A stretch of 64,000 nt of DNA from Turicibacter sanguinis (lineage in GTDB: Bacteria > Bacillota_I > Bacilli_A > MOL361 > Turicibacteraceae), in NCBI RefSeq assembly GCF_013046825.1, contig NZ_CP053187.1, forward strand, positions 1,167,501-1,231,500. Direction: 5' to 3'. Both the position numbers and the translations under genes were made by a program. How positions within the stretch are numbered: the stretch's first letter is position 1; every line of letters starts with the position of its first letter. Shown here one piece after another: positions 35,018-53,298 of the stretch. The notes under the pieces are model-generated. The model was not told the origin of the DNA and ran no database searches. It saw only the letters and a program-made list of their open reading frames with translations.

Positions 35018-35078
35018 TTTTGTCGAGTTGTTTTATTTGACCGAATAGGAAATATGTGTTAAGTTAAAAGTGTTAATG

Positions 35079-35163
35079 ATACTAGGGGTGCCTTACGGCT
35101 GAGAGTGTAGCGATACATAACCCTTTGAACCTGAACTAGTTAGGACTAGCGGAGGGAAGTAGA
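35079..35163 (+). ncRNA. TPP riboswitch (THI element)
   Basis: The plus strand shows the conserved GGGGTGCC, CTGAGA, ACCCTTTGAACCTGA, an ACTAGTTAGGACTAG P5-like stem and GCGGAGGGAAGTA, in the right order and spacing for the thiamine pyrophosphate aptamer. It precedes a thiamine transporter gene by about 90 nt, so ligand binding should reduce expression of thiT. Confidence 0.97.
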
Positions 35164-35218
35164 CAGAATTTTTATTAAATGCTATTTTAATAAAATTATA
35201 TTCTTATACTTTTAATTA

Positions 35219-47126: not shown

Positions 47127-48605
47127 ATGAGATACAAAGAGCCTAAACATCGAACAATTCTAGAAGCTACAACAGAAGAATTAGTTCAACTTCTAGAAAA
47201 GTCAAAAGATGATAATTGGAAACCAATTTATCATATTCATCCAGAGTTTGGTTTATTAAATGATCCAAATGGATTAGCATATTTTAATGGTTATTATCAT
47301 CTTTTTCACCAATGGTATCCTTTTGGGACAACACATGGAATGAAACATTGGGCTCATTTGAAATCAAAAAACTTAGTTGAATGGACACGTGAAGAAGTAG
47401 CATTAATACCAACTGAAGATTATGAAGCTCATGGAGCATATTCAGGAACAGCTATAGAAATAAATAATCAGTTGTATTTGTATTACACTGGAAACATTAA
47501 ATTAGATAAGTTTAATCGAAGCGCAAATCAGTGTTTAGCTATTATGGATGATAAGGGGAATATTCAAAAACATCCATCAAATGCGTTGATTGAAGGCGTT
47601 CCACAAGGGTATACCGGACATGTTCGTGATCCAAAAGTATTTAAAAAGAATGGTCAATATTATATGATTTTGGGAGCTCAACGATTAGATGAAACAGGAA
47701 CCTTTATTATGTATCAATCCCCAGATGGAGTAGATTGGAGTTTTTTAGGAGAGTTAACGTTAAAAAACTTTAATCAGAATTTAGGGTATATGTGGGAATG
47801 TCCAGACTTTGCTGAGATTGACGGAAAGGATTTATTGATTTTTTCACCACAGGGAGTTGAAGTACAAGGTGAGAAGTATAAAAATTTATTTAATGTAACG
47901 TATGTAATTGGAAAGTTAGATTTAGATCAATTGATATTTGAAGTAGAATCATTTGATGAATTTGAGCGAGGATTTGATTTCTATGCGACTCAAACTTTTA
48001 AAGGAAAAGAAAATCAAACACTACTATTAGCCTGGGCAGGTTTAGGAGAATTTGAATATCCAACTGATATTTTTGGATGGGCTCATTGCTTAACATTCCC
48101 AAGAGAAATTAGAATCAAAGATAATAAGGTTATTCAAATTCCAGCAAAAGAACTTGAGTTATTACGTCTCAATAAAGTATCAGAAGCAGGTCAATGTCAA
48201 GGATTTTCTTTATTAGAAAATGATACAAATACATATGAGTTAAATATGATACTCACCCCAAATGATGCAAATATTTTTGGAATAAACCTATCAGTTTCAA
48301 AAGAGGAACGTCTGGTATTAGAGTTTAATCAGAAAAATCAAACCGTTACACTTGATCGAAGTGAATTAAAACATCAGTTTGTTGAAGAGTTTGGGACATA
48401 TCGTCAAGCAGAATTAAAAATTGGTGAAAAGATTGAAATTAAAGTTTTAATGGATAATAGTATTGTTGAAATCTTTATTAACAATGGGGAGTTAGCCTTT
48501 ACAAGCCGATTATTCCCATTAGAAAATTCAACTAATATAGAGATTTTTAGCGATGGATTAATGTCCTATAAGTATGAGAAGTATCTTTTAAAACATGGTA
48601 TTTAA
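47127..48605 (+). CDS. scrB: Sucrose-6-phosphate hydrolase (GH32)
   Basis: Cytoplasmic beta-fructosidase of 492 residues splitting sucrose-6-phosphate into glucose-6-phosphate and fructose. The nucleophile Asp lies in HPEFGLLNDPNGLAYF (about residue 51), the transition-state stabiliser in HVRDPKVFK, and the acid/base Glu in MWECPDFAEI; the C-terminal beta-sandwich ends near IFINNGELAFTSRLFP. Start ATG at 47127, with AGAGGT inside the last codons of scrA, so the two genes are co-transcribed and probably translationally coupled. No fructokinase gene follows, so one must be elsewhere. Terminator follows. Confidence 0.95.
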   Translation: MRYKEPKHRTILEATTEELVQLLEKSKDDNWKPIYHIHPEFGLLNDPNGLAYFNGYYHLFHQWYPFGTTHGMKHWAHLKSKNLVEWTREEVALIPTEDYEAHGAYSGTAIEINNQLYLYYTGNIKLDKFNRSANQCLAIMDDKGNIQKHPSNALIEGVPQGYTGHVRDPKVFKKNGQYYMILGAQRLDETGTFIMYQSPDGVDWSFLGELTLKNFNQNLGYMWECPDFAEIDGKDLLIFSPQGVEVQGEKYKNLFNVTYVIGKLDLDQLIFEVESFDEFERGFDFYATQTFKGKENQTLLLAWAGLGEFEYPTDIFGWAHCLTFPREIRIKDNKVIQIPAKELELLRLNKVSEAGQCQGFSLLENDTNTYELNMILTPNDANIFGINLSVSKEERLVLEFNQKNQTVTLDRSELKHQFVEEFGTYRQAELKIGEKIEIKVLMDNSIVEIFINNGELAFTSRLFPLENSTNIEIFSDGLMSYKYEKYLLKHGI

Positions 48606-48621
48606 TTTATTTACCATACAT

Positions 48622-48660
48622 AAAAAAAGGTCTGTCAAAAATATGACAGACCTTTTTTTA
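48622..48660 (+). terminator. Intrinsic terminator of the sucrose operon
   Basis: AAAAAAAGGTCTGTCA and TGACAGACCTTTTTTT around a 6-nt loop. Confidence 0.92.
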
Positions 48661-48812
48661 TGTATCATTTTTTGAAAACGTTTAACGAGTTTATAGGTAC
48701 CATTAGCAAGACAAAATCTATCTTTTTAAGTATCTAGTTTTTGGTACTATAAAAAAGCAGTTGAGGCAGAGGTTTAATCAATTGATTACGTATTGATAAA
48801 GTGAGGTCACTT

Positions 48813-49618: not shown

Positions 49619-49681
49619 GACTGGCTAAACGCTTGATTCAACTTTTTAATAAAACCACATAATTTCTCCATAGTGTTGTCA

Positions 49682-49687
49682 TATAAT
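49682..49687 (+). promoter_or_regulatory. -10 box of mgtE
   Basis: TATAAT in GTCATATAATATCG. The -35 region is poor. It implies a leader of about 145 nt. Confidence 0.45.
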
Positions 49688-49773
49688 ATCGTGGGTTGTG
49701 AATGTACCTACTTTGCCGATGATATTGAAAGGATGTGAGGGTATGGACGGTAGTCCGAGTTGTTGTAAGGATA

Positions 49774-49832
49774 ATAAGATGGGTTCCATATCTGACCATC
49801 TTATGAAGTGGAGGATATGGTAACCAAGGAGG
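49774..49832 (+). promoter_or_regulatory. Predicted H-type pseudoknot in the mgtE leader
   Basis: ATAAGATGG (49774-49782) pairs with CCATCTTAT (49796-49804). The loop sequence CCATATC (49786-49792) pairs with GATATGG (49814-49820), extendable by GGTT with AACC (49822-49825). The second helix ends at the ribosome binding site AAGGAGG (49826-49832), so its formation could control mgtE translation. The sequence does not match the M-box. A small hairpin GGAC-GGTA-GTCC lies further upstream. Confidence 0.5.
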
Positions 49833-49840
49833 ATTGAGCC

Positions 49841-51175
49841 ATGGTTATTGAAATTAAAGAGTTAATTGAAAGAAATAAGTTATTAGAGTTATGTGAGTAT
49901 TTACAAGAATTGAATTCTGTTGATGTAGCGAATCAATTAATGGATCTTGAGGATGAAGAGTTGGTTTTAGTTTTTAGGGTTTTACCTAAGGATATTGCTG
50001 CAGAAGTTTTTTCTTATTTAGATAAAGATTCTCAACAACATATTGTGGGGTCGATTACAGATCGAGAAGTCACACAAATTGTGGATAAGTTATTTTTAGA
50101 TGACACAGTTGATTTTATTGAGGAGTTACCTGCAAATGTTGTTAAAAAGGTGATTCGAAATACATCTCCTCAAAAACGTGAATTAATTAATCAGTTTTTA
50201 CAGTATGCACAGTATTCAGCAGGATCAATTATGACGATTGAGTTTGTTGATTTAAAAGCGTATATGACTGTTAAAGAGGCAATTAATCATACTCGAAAAA
50301 CTGGAACAACTAAGGAAACGTTAGAAACTTGTTTTATCATTGATCAAGCACGTCATCTTTTAGGATCGGTGACACTTAAAGATTTAATTTTAAGCGAAGA
50401 TGATATGATAATTGAAGATATTATGGACACTAATCTTATCTCAGTTCAAACATCGGTTGATCAAGAAGAGGTTGCACATTTATTTAAGGCGTATGATTTA
50501 GTAACGATGCCCGTCGTGGATAAAGAAAACCGTCTAGTAGGAATGATTACGATTGATGATGTTGTGGATATCATTGAGCAAGAAAATACGGAAGATTTTC
50601 AAAAGATGGCAGCGATGGCACCAAACGAGGAACCTTATTTAAAAACTCCCGTTTTATCTTTAGCTAAACATCGTATTATTTGGTTATTAGTTTTAATGAT
50701 TTCAGCAACGGTGACAGGACGTATCATTCAAGGGTTTGAGGAAGTCATTCAATCGGTTGTTATTTTAGCATCATTTATTCCAATGTTAATGGACACAGGG
50801 GGAAATGCTGGTTCTCAGTCTTCTACTTTAATTATTCGAGGATTAGCGCTTGGTGAAATTACGACTCATGATTATTTAAAAGTTATGTTTAAAGAGTTAC
50901 GAGTAGGAAGTGTTGTGGCAATTGTTCTATCTGTTGTCAATTTTTTAAGAATTTATTTTATTGAGCATGTCGAGTTTATGGTCGGAATTACTGTTTGTGC
51001 AAGTTTGTTCTTTACGGTTATTTTAGCTAAAGTGGTGGGAAGTATTTTACCGATTATTGCTAAGAAGTTAAAATTTGATCCAGCTATTATGGCGAGTCCG
51101 TTGATTACAACGATTGTTGATGCCTTTGCATTAATTGTTTACTTTATGTTAGCTCGCACACTTTTAGGAATTTAA
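49841..51175 (+). CDS. mgtE: MgtE family magnesium transporter
   Basis: Mg2+-selective channel of 444 residues. The N-terminal helical superhelix domain (VFRVLPKDIAAEVFSYLD, QFLQYAQYSAGSIMT) and two CBS domains (about residues 130-255, ending LVGMITIDDVVDIIEQENTED) form the cytosolic Mg2+ sensor; five TM helices follow, with the pore region MDTGGNAGSQSSTLIIRGLALGEI. Length and order are typical. ATG at 49841 after AAGGAGG at the end of a pseudoknot-like leader. It is a single gene followed by a terminator. Confidence 0.96.
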   Translation: MVIEIKELIERNKLLELCEYLQELNSVDVANQLMDLEDEELVLVFRVLPKDIAAEVFSYLDKDSQQHIVGSITDREVTQIVDKLFLDDTVDFIEELPANVVKKVIRNTSPQKRELINQFLQYAQYSAGSIMTIEFVDLKAYMTVKEAINHTRKTGTTKETLETCFIIDQARHLLGSVTLKDLILSEDDMIIEDIMDTNLISVQTSVDQEEVAHLFKAYDLVTMPVVDKENRLVGMITIDDVVDIIEQENTEDFQKMAAMAPNEEPYLKTPVLSLAKHRIIWLLVLMISATVTGRIIQGFEEVIQSVVILASFIPMLMDTGGNAGSQSSTLIIRGLALGEITTHDYLKVMFKELRVGSVVAIVLSVVNFLRIYFIEHVEFMVGITVCASLFFTVILAKVVGSILPIIAKKLKFDPAIMASPLITTIVDAFALIVYFMLARTLLGI

Positions 51176-51239: not shown

Positions 51240-51908
51240 ATGCGTATTTTAATGGTAGATGATGAAGTAAAGATTTGTGAATTTGTACAGGCGTGTTTAG
51301 ATAATGAAGGGTATCAAACAGAGGTTGCTCATGATGGTAAAACAGCACTTAGTTTATTTCATCAGTATACCTATGATTTGATTCTGCTTGATCGAATGTT
51401 GCCTGATGTGAGTGGAGAAGAAATCTGTAAACAAATTAGACAACAGTCTGATATTCCAATTATAATGCTAACAGCCAAAATAGAAGATGAAGATCGAATT
51501 GAAGGTTTTCAATTAGGTTGTGATGATTATATTTGTAAGCCATTTAATATAATGGAGTTATTACTCCGAATAAAGGCTATTTTAAAACGAACGATAAAAA
51601 AAGATAATCAAGATTTAATTAAATTTGGAACAGATTTTGAACTAAATACTTTATCCCATCAGTTAAAGGTTAAAGGACAGGAGGTTCCTTTAACGAATAC
51701 AGAGTATAAAATTTTATTGGCCCTTAGTTCACATCCTCAAAAAGTGTATACTCGAGAAGAATTACTGGCTTATGCAGTTGATGGATATGTTGAAAAATTT
51801 GATCGTGTGATTGATAGTCATATTAAAAATTTAAGGCATAAGATTGAGATAGATTCAATTATCTTAACCGTGTACGGAGTGGGGTATCGTTTTGGATTAC
51901 AAAAGTAA
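51240..51908 (+). CDS. OmpR/PhoB family response regulator
   Basis: Two-component regulator of 222 residues. The receiver domain starts MRILMVDDEVKICEFV, has the phosphorylated Asp in YDLILLDRMLPDVSG (about residue 51) and the conserved Lys in DYICKPFNIMEL; the C-terminal winged helix has LTNTEYKILLALSSHPQKVYTREELL and IKNLRHKIE. The gene overlaps the sensor kinase downstream, so they form a pair. ATG at 51240 after TTGGAG. Target genes are not visible; no transporter of the Bce type or envelope operon follows directly. Confidence 0.95.
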   Translation: MRILMVDDEVKICEFVQACLDNEGYQTEVAHDGKTALSLFHQYTYDLILLDRMLPDVSGEEICKQIRQQSDIPIIMLTAKIEDEDRIEGFQLGCDDYICKPFNIMELLLRIKAILKRTIKKDNQDLIKFGTDFELNTLSHQLKVKGQEVPLTNTEYKILLALSSHPQKVYTREELLAYAVDGYVEKFDRVIDSHIKNLRHKIEIDSIILTVYGVGYRFGLQK

Positions 51909-53298
51909 AAGAATGCCTATTAATAAAAAAATGATTTTAATTTTTTCATTTGTCATGATTGTGACGATTATTATGATTCGGTTATTTGTTGCAACGCTTT
52001 TTCAACATTCATTTGAACGATATGTAGATGATTCGAATAAAGTAGAGTTATATCATTTAATGAATTTTGACGCTCGAGGGCTCTATCGAAATGATGAATG
52101 GGATATGGATTTTATTAAAAATTTAGGAATTGATGCGATTCAAAAAGGAATTGCGATTAAAGTATATGATCATTCGGGCAAGGAGCTTTGGAGTGTGTTT
52201 TCTGATGAGAAGGTGCTATCCGATTACACGTTAAATGAAATTAGTCAAAATATGCAAAACATTGACAGTGATTGGAGTAATGCACTCGAGGATTATCAAG
52301 TAGATATTTATAATGAGAGAGATGAAGTTGTCGGAAAACTAGATTTAACTCATTATGCTTCGACGTATTATATGAGTAATGATTTAGAGCTATTGAATAC
52401 GGTTAATCAGGTGATTTTAATTATTGGTATTGTGTCAGTGGGCAGTATTGTTGTGGTTTCTGCGATGATTTCAAAATCTATTTCGATTCCTATCGTGAAG
52501 GTGTCCCGAATGGCGAAGTTGATTGAGACTGGCCAATATAAGAAGGAAGTGGAGACTCGTAGCGATATTAAGGAGATTGATGAGTTAATCACATCGATTA
52601 ATAATTTGTCACTGGCTTTAGATGAGCAAGAAATGTTGAGGAAGCAACTGACGACTGATATTGCGCACGAGTTAAGAACGCCTTTAACGACGATAAAGGG
52701 GCATTTGGATGTGATGATTGCGGGAATTTGGGAACCGACGTCTGAGCGTTTGATGAGTATTAATGAGGAAGTCGTTAGGATTAGCCGGATGGTAGATGAA
52801 CTACGCCATCTTTCAAAGTATGATAGCGAAAGGACAAAGCTTGAGTTATCTAAAATACGATTAGATGAGCTGTTAGTGTCTGTCATTTATAATTATCAAG
52901 TTCAAGCCTTTGAAAAAAACATCGAGATTCAATCGCAAATTGAACCAGTAGTGGCTTTAGTTGACGAGAAGAAATTTTCTCAAGTGTTAATCAATCTATT
53001 ATCGAATGCCACTAAGTATACAAATGTAGGCGGAGTGATTACGGTGATGTGTCATTCTGATGAGCAACATATCTATATTAAAGTTGTGGATAATGGTATT
53101 GGAATTCCAGAGGTTGATTTGAAACATATCTTTGAACGATTTTATCGTGTGGATAAGTCAAGAAGTAAGGAAACGGGGGGCATTGGTGTTGGATTAACGA
53201 TTGCGAAATCTATTGTAGAAGCTCACGGGGGATTGCTGAGTGTAAAAAGTGAAGTAGGGATTGGTAGTGAATTTATGATTCAATTAAAAATAATTTGA
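51892..53298 (+). CDS. Sensor histidine kinase
   Basis: Membrane kinase of 468 residues: TM helix (about 14-35), extracellular sensor region (about 36-165), second TM (LILIIGIVSVGSIVVVSAMI), HAMP, then the HisKA box DIAHELRTPLTTIKGH (phosphorylated His about residue 260) and ATPase motifs INLLSNATKYT, VDNGIGI and GGIGVGLTI. The start is uncertain: a TTG at 51892, preceded by GGAGTGGGG and overlapping the regulator gene by 17 bp, fits best; the ATG at 51913 has no clear ribosome binding site. It forms a two-component system with the OmpR-type regulator; stimulus unknown. Confidence 0.93.
   Translation: MDYKSKRMPINKKMILIFSFVMIVTIIMIRLFVATLFQHSFERYVDDSNKVELYHLMNFDARGLYRNDEWDMDFIKNLGIDAIQKGIAIKVYDHSGKELWSVFSDEKVLSDYTLNEISQNMQNIDSDWSNALEDYQVDIYNERDEVVGKLDLTHYASTYYMSNDLELLNTVNQVILIIGIVSVGSIVVVSAMISKSISIPIVKVSRMAKLIETGQYKKEVETRSDIKEIDELITSINNLSLALDEQEMLRKQLTTDIAHELRTPLTTIKGHLDVMIAGIWEPTSERLMSINEEVVRISRMVDELRHLSKYDSERTKLELSKIRLDELLVSVIYNYQVQAFEKNIEIQSQIEPVVALVDEKKFSQVLINLLSNATKYTNVGGVITVMCHSDEQHIYIKVVDNGIGIPEVDLKHIFERFYRVDKSRSKETGGIGVGLTIAKSIVEAHGGLLSVKSEVGIGSEFMIQLKII

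Follow-up and report, generated by a model that had tools for sequence, protein, structure and literature searches.

The mgtE leader of Turicibacter sanguinis, analysed here within a window of 64,000 nucleotides (contig NZ_CP053187.1), contains an upstream open reading frame (uORF) whose start, M-[D/E]-x-x-P, is conserved in most of the related mgtE leaders compared. This leader peptide, together with mutually exclusive helices that reach into the mgtE ribosome binding site, constitutes the strongest conserved signal at the locus. Because the architecture matches that of mgtQ and the Asp/Glu-Pro starts resemble that of MgtL, we consider it likely that attenuation here works by translation abortion, as for mgtQ and MgtL, and that the leader senses Mg2+ in this way. 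A first-pass annotation of the same DNA had proposed a pseudoknot riboswitch at this site and overlooked the uORF, within which (49743-49823) most of the proposed element lies.

The leader peptide and its conservation

The features that define the locus are as follows.

49658..49687, + strand: probable promoter as read from the sequence, three CATA direct repeats leading to a -10-like TATAAT (49682-49687)
49729..49740, + strand: Shine-Dalgarno (SD) region of the uORF, AAGGATGTGAGG, assigned from the sequence and the SD duplex ranking
49743..49823, + strand: uORF (leader peptide) MDGSPSCCKDNKMGSISDHLMKWRIW followed by a stop, 26 codons, in which Asp2 and Pro5 are the conserved residues
49841..51175, + strand: mgtE, magnesium transporter of 444 amino acids, with its ATG at 49841

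The uORF reads ATG GAC GGT AGT CCG ... TGG TAA, giving a peptide that starts MDGSPSCC, and it stops 17 nt before the mgtE start and two bases before the mgtE SD. As expected of an abortion leader, the ORF is short, has an SD of its own and immediately precedes a gene for a Mg2+ transporter, the identity of which is given by TIGR00400 (492.8 bits; cut-off 232.75) and by PF01769, PF03448 and CBS domain matches.

Conservation was assessed in 81 leaders, comprising that of the window and those of 80 MgtE relatives from GTDB genomes (Clostridia, Fusobacteria and others). From the stretch between -185 and -75 of every leader, the ORF whose SD formed the strongest duplex was selected without use of the peptide, and a duplex stronger than -6 kcal/mol was required; this unconditioned scan replaced a first uORF count that had been conditioned on a GA[TC] second codon. 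A uORF passed the cut-off in 62 of the 81 leaders. Residue 2 of these 62 uORFs was Asp in 51 and Glu in 5, whereas Pro occupied residue 5 in 50 and residue 7 in 18. Asp2 and Pro5 occurred together in 45 cases, against a mean of 0.1 (maximum 1) in shuffled leaders, although the leaders are mutually related and such shuffle counts are not strict probabilities. Glu replaces Asp in starts such as MESGPL, MEPDSL, METDPG and MEEDPP, and Pro5 is encoded by CCT (22), CCC (18), CCG (6) and CCA (1). Given the exchange of Asp with Glu and the use of all four proline codons, it is the peptide itself that is kept, and the acidic residue(s) and proline in the first codons, which are a mark of abortion leaders, are therefore retained at the peptide level. 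A small GGA..UCC hairpin could account for part of the Pro5 conservation.

Typical starts are MDSGPLP, MDPGPLP, MDSSPLP, MDTDPEP and MEPDSL. Only about the first seven residues are kept; the remaining peptide is not conserved, and its length varies from 14 to 45 amino acids. Further relatives outside the 81-leader set, which belong to the window's own class and have an MgtE close to the query, start with MDSYPS, MDSGPLP and MDDSPKL. The leaders L002, L003 and L005 likewise have a uORF, whereas most of the distant MgtE genes lack one. The uORF is linked near-exclusively to mgtE: a strict DNA pattern covering the SD, start and first codons was found in 5 of 291 Clostridia genomes, in all five before mgtE, and the reversed pattern gave zero matches in the same search. 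A looser DNA pattern for the uORF start has a single match in the window's genome, which is this leader.

Competing helices at the mgtE start

Four regions of the leader can pair in alternative ways, and a further hairpin had been proposed around the second of them.

49729..49748, + strand: region 1, containing the SD and the start codon of the uORF; forms helix 1:2 with region 2, a duplex of -18.4 kcal/mol with covariation in relatives
49774..49804, + strand: 9-bp hairpin ATAAGATGG/CCATCTTAT of the first-pass annotation, around region 2; no counterpart in relatives
49782..49803, + strand: region 2, inside the uORF; 49784-49803 pairs with region 1, and 49782-49792 (GGTTCCATATC) pairs alternatively with region 3
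49814..49825, + strand: region 3, GATATGGTAACC, in which one T bulges out; forms helix 2:3 with region 2 or, through 49816-49821, stem 3:4 with region 4
49826..49843, + strand: mgtE SD AAGGAGG (49826-49832) and region 4, GCCAUG (49838-49843, including the start codon); within stem-loop 3:4 in the predicted OFF fold

The helices and the accessibility of the mgtE start were evaluated in 53-58 leaders with a uORF from the GA[TC]-conditioned set. Region 2 lies about 45-70 nt downstream of region 1 in relatives, inside the uORF, and the whole of it is read by the uORF in 49 of 58 leaders; the uORF stop has a median position of -16 relative to the mgtE start (range -72 to +29). Helix 1:2 has an energy of -20.0 kcal/mol with its own partner and -14.7 kcal/mol with swapped partners, and the best of 2000 permutations reached -16.3. 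In an alignment of 25 compact leaders, double-sided changes were observed in 10 of its 17 pairs (37 cells), a cell count that was equalled in 0 of 500 shuffles, with slid registers scoring far lower; this covariation is drawn from leaders that are only distantly related to that of the window. Helix 2:3 is also specific to its own partner (-16.9 versus -10.2 kcal/mol when swapped; permutation minimum -12.2), and because its columns are so conserved, its column-wise covariation is modest. In the predicted folds, region 3 otherwise turns back over the mgtE SD or start as stem 3:4, which in the window is weak (-5.6 kcal/mol), closing the start codon and leaving the SD unpaired. Since 1:2 and 2:3 exclude each other at region 2, and 2:3 and 3:4 at region 3, the state of the switch would depend on the position of the ribosome. 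Predicted structures and covariation thus describe exclusive helices that expose or hide a downstream start, as in an abortion leader.

The predicted accessibility of the mgtE start changes with the availability of region 2. Across 58 leaders, opening the stretch from the mgtE SD to its AUG costs 6.15 kcal/mol with region 2 removed and 1.92 kcal/mol with region 2 free and region 1 absent, compared with 6.16 kcal/mol when region 2 is shuffled (Wilcoxon p about 3e-10) and 5.84 kcal/mol in the naked leader. The corresponding costs for the window are 5.0 without region 2, 1.7 with region 2 free, 5.2 with region 2 shuffled and 3.0 kcal/mol for the naked leader. Freeing region 2 brought no drop in opening energy in 14 of the 58 leaders.

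The first-pass annotation had read the same site as an H-type pseudoknot riboswitch (preQ1-II/SAM-II-like) at the mgtE SD, binding Mg2+ or another ligand. Its strings are all where it placed them, with ATAAGATGG at 49774, CCATCTTAT at 49796, GGTTCCATATC, which includes CCATATC, at 49782, GATATGGTAACC at 49814 and AAGGAGG at 49826, and its second helix, which ends at the SD, turned out to be the conserved helix 2:3. Crossed helices of this size are also rare by chance: a perfect 9-bp stem is present in 2.2% of dinucleotide-shuffled leaders, and about 0.03% of shuffled leaders combine such a stem with a disjoint 7-bp stem that crosses it, so that the pattern locally exceeds chance, though it was found post hoc. 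About eight crossed 9+7 bp places occur in the 64-kb window, against 0-2 in shuffled windows. The 9-bp hairpin, however, is not conserved; its enclosing-helix energy is -4.56 against -4.43 when shuffled, and 6 of 58 leaders have one stronger than -9. That annotation had itself asked for both helices in relatives, and the finding that the second is kept and the first is missing counts against a pseudoknot. Moreover, the conserved core is a coding start and not an unpaired core, and CCATATC pairs equally well with the uORF start region GGTATGG (49740-49746), a pairing of region 2 with the start that relatives keep. Rfam searches of the element at gathering and permissive thresholds gave no relevant family and no riboswitch family match. 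A preQ1-II/SAM-II type pseudoknot was rejected on this result and on the unconserved first helix, and we regard a ligand-binding pseudoknot here as very unlikely. What survives of the proposal is an RNA switch that acts in cis on the ribosome binding site of mgtE and works without an M-box. The M-box was correctly called absent, its covariance model (RF00380) having no gathering-score match in the leader, the window or the 3.0-Mb genome; the reading of the leader as an M-box relic was discarded on the same ground.

As far as seen, the 9-bp hairpin is a feature of this species only. Because CCATCTTA of the window additionally pairs with the uORF SD in helix 1:2, we conjecture that the hairpin is a competitor of 1:2 and might thereby promote the open state. 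Elsewhere in the window, a further crossed 9+7 bp combination at 48617-48676, just 3′ of an ORF ending at 48605, is probably a terminator with alternative arms, and a TPP riboswitch (RF00059, 73 bits) lies at 35074-35174.

Proposed mechanism and alternative readings

Under the proposed mechanism, a ribosome would start the uORF at M-D-x-x-P. When Mg2+ is ample, it would read the whole uORF and cover region 2, with the result that 3:4 pairs and the mgtE start is closed; when no ribosome is present, 1:2 would hold region 2, 3:4 would form and mgtE would be mostly closed. When Mg2+ is scarce, the acidic/proline start would destabilize the 70S ribosome and lead to a pause or drop-off at the first codons, and these first residues are probably what makes ribosomes fall off. 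An aborted ribosome would have opened region 1 while remaining short of region 2, allowing 2:3 to pair and freeing both the SD and the start codon of mgtE. Synthesis of the Mg2+ channel MgtE would then restore Mg2+. Translation of the uORF, abortion on it and control by Mg2+ are presumed in this scheme, and helix 2:3 would be its ON state in vivo.

Most of what has been established about ribosome destabilization comes from E. coli and Salmonella (and from eukaryotes). The MDGSP of the window is a mild start, with one acidic residue and one proline, and abortion by Gram-positive ribosomes is putative. In E. coli, ribosomes drop off the EPDP start of MgtL when Mg2+ is limiting (PMC11282234), and intrinsic destabilization (IRD) is suppressed by high Mg2+ (PMC9718836).

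The same RNA switch could be triggered otherwise, by a ribosome that is slowed or stalled at the early proline codon(s) (through charged tRNA-Pro or EF-P, as reported for mgtP and mgtL) or by the general efficiency of initiation setting the occupancy of region 1. Such a trigger would agree with the comparable conservation of Pro5 and Asp2 (50 and 51 of 62, respectively) and with the second proline at position 7 in 18 of 62, and the Salmonella mgtCBR and mgtA leaders are reported to respond to proline codons or EF-P (PMC8092293; PMC6460261). Yet constraint on the acidic residue 2, where Asp and Glu exchange, is no weaker than on Pro5, all downstream genes inspected encode Mg2+ transporters, and stalling of ribosomes by one proline alone is not known (PMC8092293), which makes a proline or initiation trigger improbable. 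The position of the stop, 17 nt before the mgtE ATG in the window and at a median of -16, would also suit termination-reinitiation, in which ribosomes ending the uORF reinitiate on mgtE and the uORF is a positive coupler instead of an attenuator; we give little credence to this, as coupling would hardly tolerate stops from -72 to +29 and would leave pairings 1:2 and 2:3 unexplained. It is most improbable that the product of the short ORF is a micropeptide with a function of its own, such as a partner of MgtE, and that the ORF precedes mgtE by chance: the conserved N-terminus and own SD would be consistent with one, but only about seven residues are kept, the length runs from 14 to 45 amino acids, and the rest of the peptide is partly dictated by RNA pairing. 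Translation abortion in response to Mg2+ is our preferred reading.

Genomic setting and relation to known systems

The CATA repeats at 49658, 49669 and 49680, with 11-bp spacing, run into TATAAT, and by eye the block CATAATTTCTCCATA..TATAAT is also present upstream of mgtE in L031 and L034-L038, with similar blocks in L032, L033, L040 and L041. From these features we infer a promoter at 49658-49687, which was missed by a consensus sigma-70 scan. The repeats lie over the presumed -35/-10 and are kept, by eye, in relatives having a two-component pair; they look like a candidate OmpR-type binding site. This pair, an OmpR-family response regulator and a histidine kinase, is located 3′ of mgtE at 51240-53298, and the same pair is found downstream of mgtE in L031-L033 and L035-L041 (response regulator identity 61-68%), making it a candidate for the role toward mgtE that PhoP/PhoQ would have, in Gram-positives. 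Between a HAD gene and the mgtE promoter, the segment 49541-49620 is GC-richer and carries inverted repeats (GCCCTACTAAGGGAGGAAAGCTACG...GGGGGCCCCCC), without a match in Rfam. MgtE and the neighbouring two-component genes are closest to those of Peptostreptococcaceae/Clostridium (MgtE 73% in Romboutsia), and four other genomes of the genus have no close MgtE and no such leader, which together suggests that mgtE and its leader were acquired together by horizontal transfer.

The M-box (RF00380, ykoK leader) also controls mgtE-type genes in Bacillota, but it is an aptamer and not a leader peptide. Of the 50 uORF leaders scanned, 12 carry both elements, with the M-box 5′ of the uORF (L044, L045, L052, L053, L057, L059, L061, L062, L064, L069, L081 and L082), and the uORF stands without an M-box in the window, in Peptostreptococcaceae and in most Clostridium loci scanned (L031-L040). 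From the existence of both tandem and uORF-alone loci, the two sensors would appear to be combined or exchanged. We think it somewhat more probable than otherwise that the M-[D/E]-x-x-P abortion leader and its four-region switch represent a widespread ribosome-based Mg2+ sensor outside Enterobacteria, acting on the mgtE mRNA of Bacillota (Clostridia, Bacilli) and Fusobacteria and either replacing the M-box or stacked behind it. If so, one mRNA would in stacked lineages sense Mg2+ twice, by aptamer and by ribosome. Tandem leaders would let the two Mg2+ sensors be compared directly within a single mRNA, and the M-box-free genome of the window offers the uORF by itself. The mgtE uORFs also offer a test case for Mg2+-dependent abortion of Gram-positive ribosomes on acidic/proline starts.

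Two other structured leaders share single traits with this one. The mgtE motif SRC-65-1 is likewise a structured mgtE leader, one stem of which includes the SD and AUG; by its description it is set apart as a riboswitch candidate of Thioalkalivibrio only, with no uORF (PMC11109978). The M-box and uORF2 of Mycobacterium tuberculosis pe20 show a small conserved uORF between the M-box and the main gene, as well as alternative SD/anti-SD/anti-anti-SD pairing, but the peptide is specific to mycobacteria and the controlled gene is not mgtE (PMC12810186).

The closest parallels come from enterobacteria, from which MgtL and MgtQ were reported and where they serve the P-type ATPases MgtA and MgtB. Drop-off on the EPDP of MgtL was reportedly described by Chadani in 2017, as cited in a later paper. 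MgtL, which precedes mgtA in E. coli and Salmonella, shares the acidic/proline N-terminus before a Mg2+ importer gene and the proposed drop-off at low Mg2+ (PMC11282234), and comparable starts occur among the mgtE uORFs (MEPDSL in L090, MDPVPLP in L071); MgtL targets Rho-dependent transcription termination, whereas the predicted target of the mgtE uORF is the translation start of mgtE. The resemblance to mgtQ, located between mgtC and mgtB in Salmonella, extends to Asp2, an own SD, a short ORF before a Mg2+ transporter gene, a region 1 within the uORF and translational control, with 1:2 and 3:4 closing mgtB and 2:3 opening it (PMC8092293). Mutagenesis showed that Asp2 and Glu5 of the 8-amino-acid mgtQ ORF lower its own translation (PMC8092293). 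However, mgtQ is intergenic within an operon, has 8 codons and carries Pro4 and Glu5 (PMC8092293), whereas the mgtE uORFs have 14-45 codons and Pro5, stand in a 5′ leader before an unrelated transporter family and usually contain region 2. Their hosts are Bacillota, Fusobacteria and relatives, and the peptides are too short to establish kinship; the likeness to mgtQ and mgtL is likely due to convergence. Searches of the open-licence literature gave mgtQ and MgtL but no mgtE leader peptide from Gram-positives or Fusobacteria, a description elsewhere being possible; the same logic, on another transporter and in other phyla, is apparently undescribed there. That this logic recurs in other phyla, before the gene of a Mg2+ channel unrelated to MgtA and MgtB, is strongly supported by comparison and suggests that reading intracellular Mg2+ through ribosome stability may be a general strategy that is either repeatedly evolved or old.
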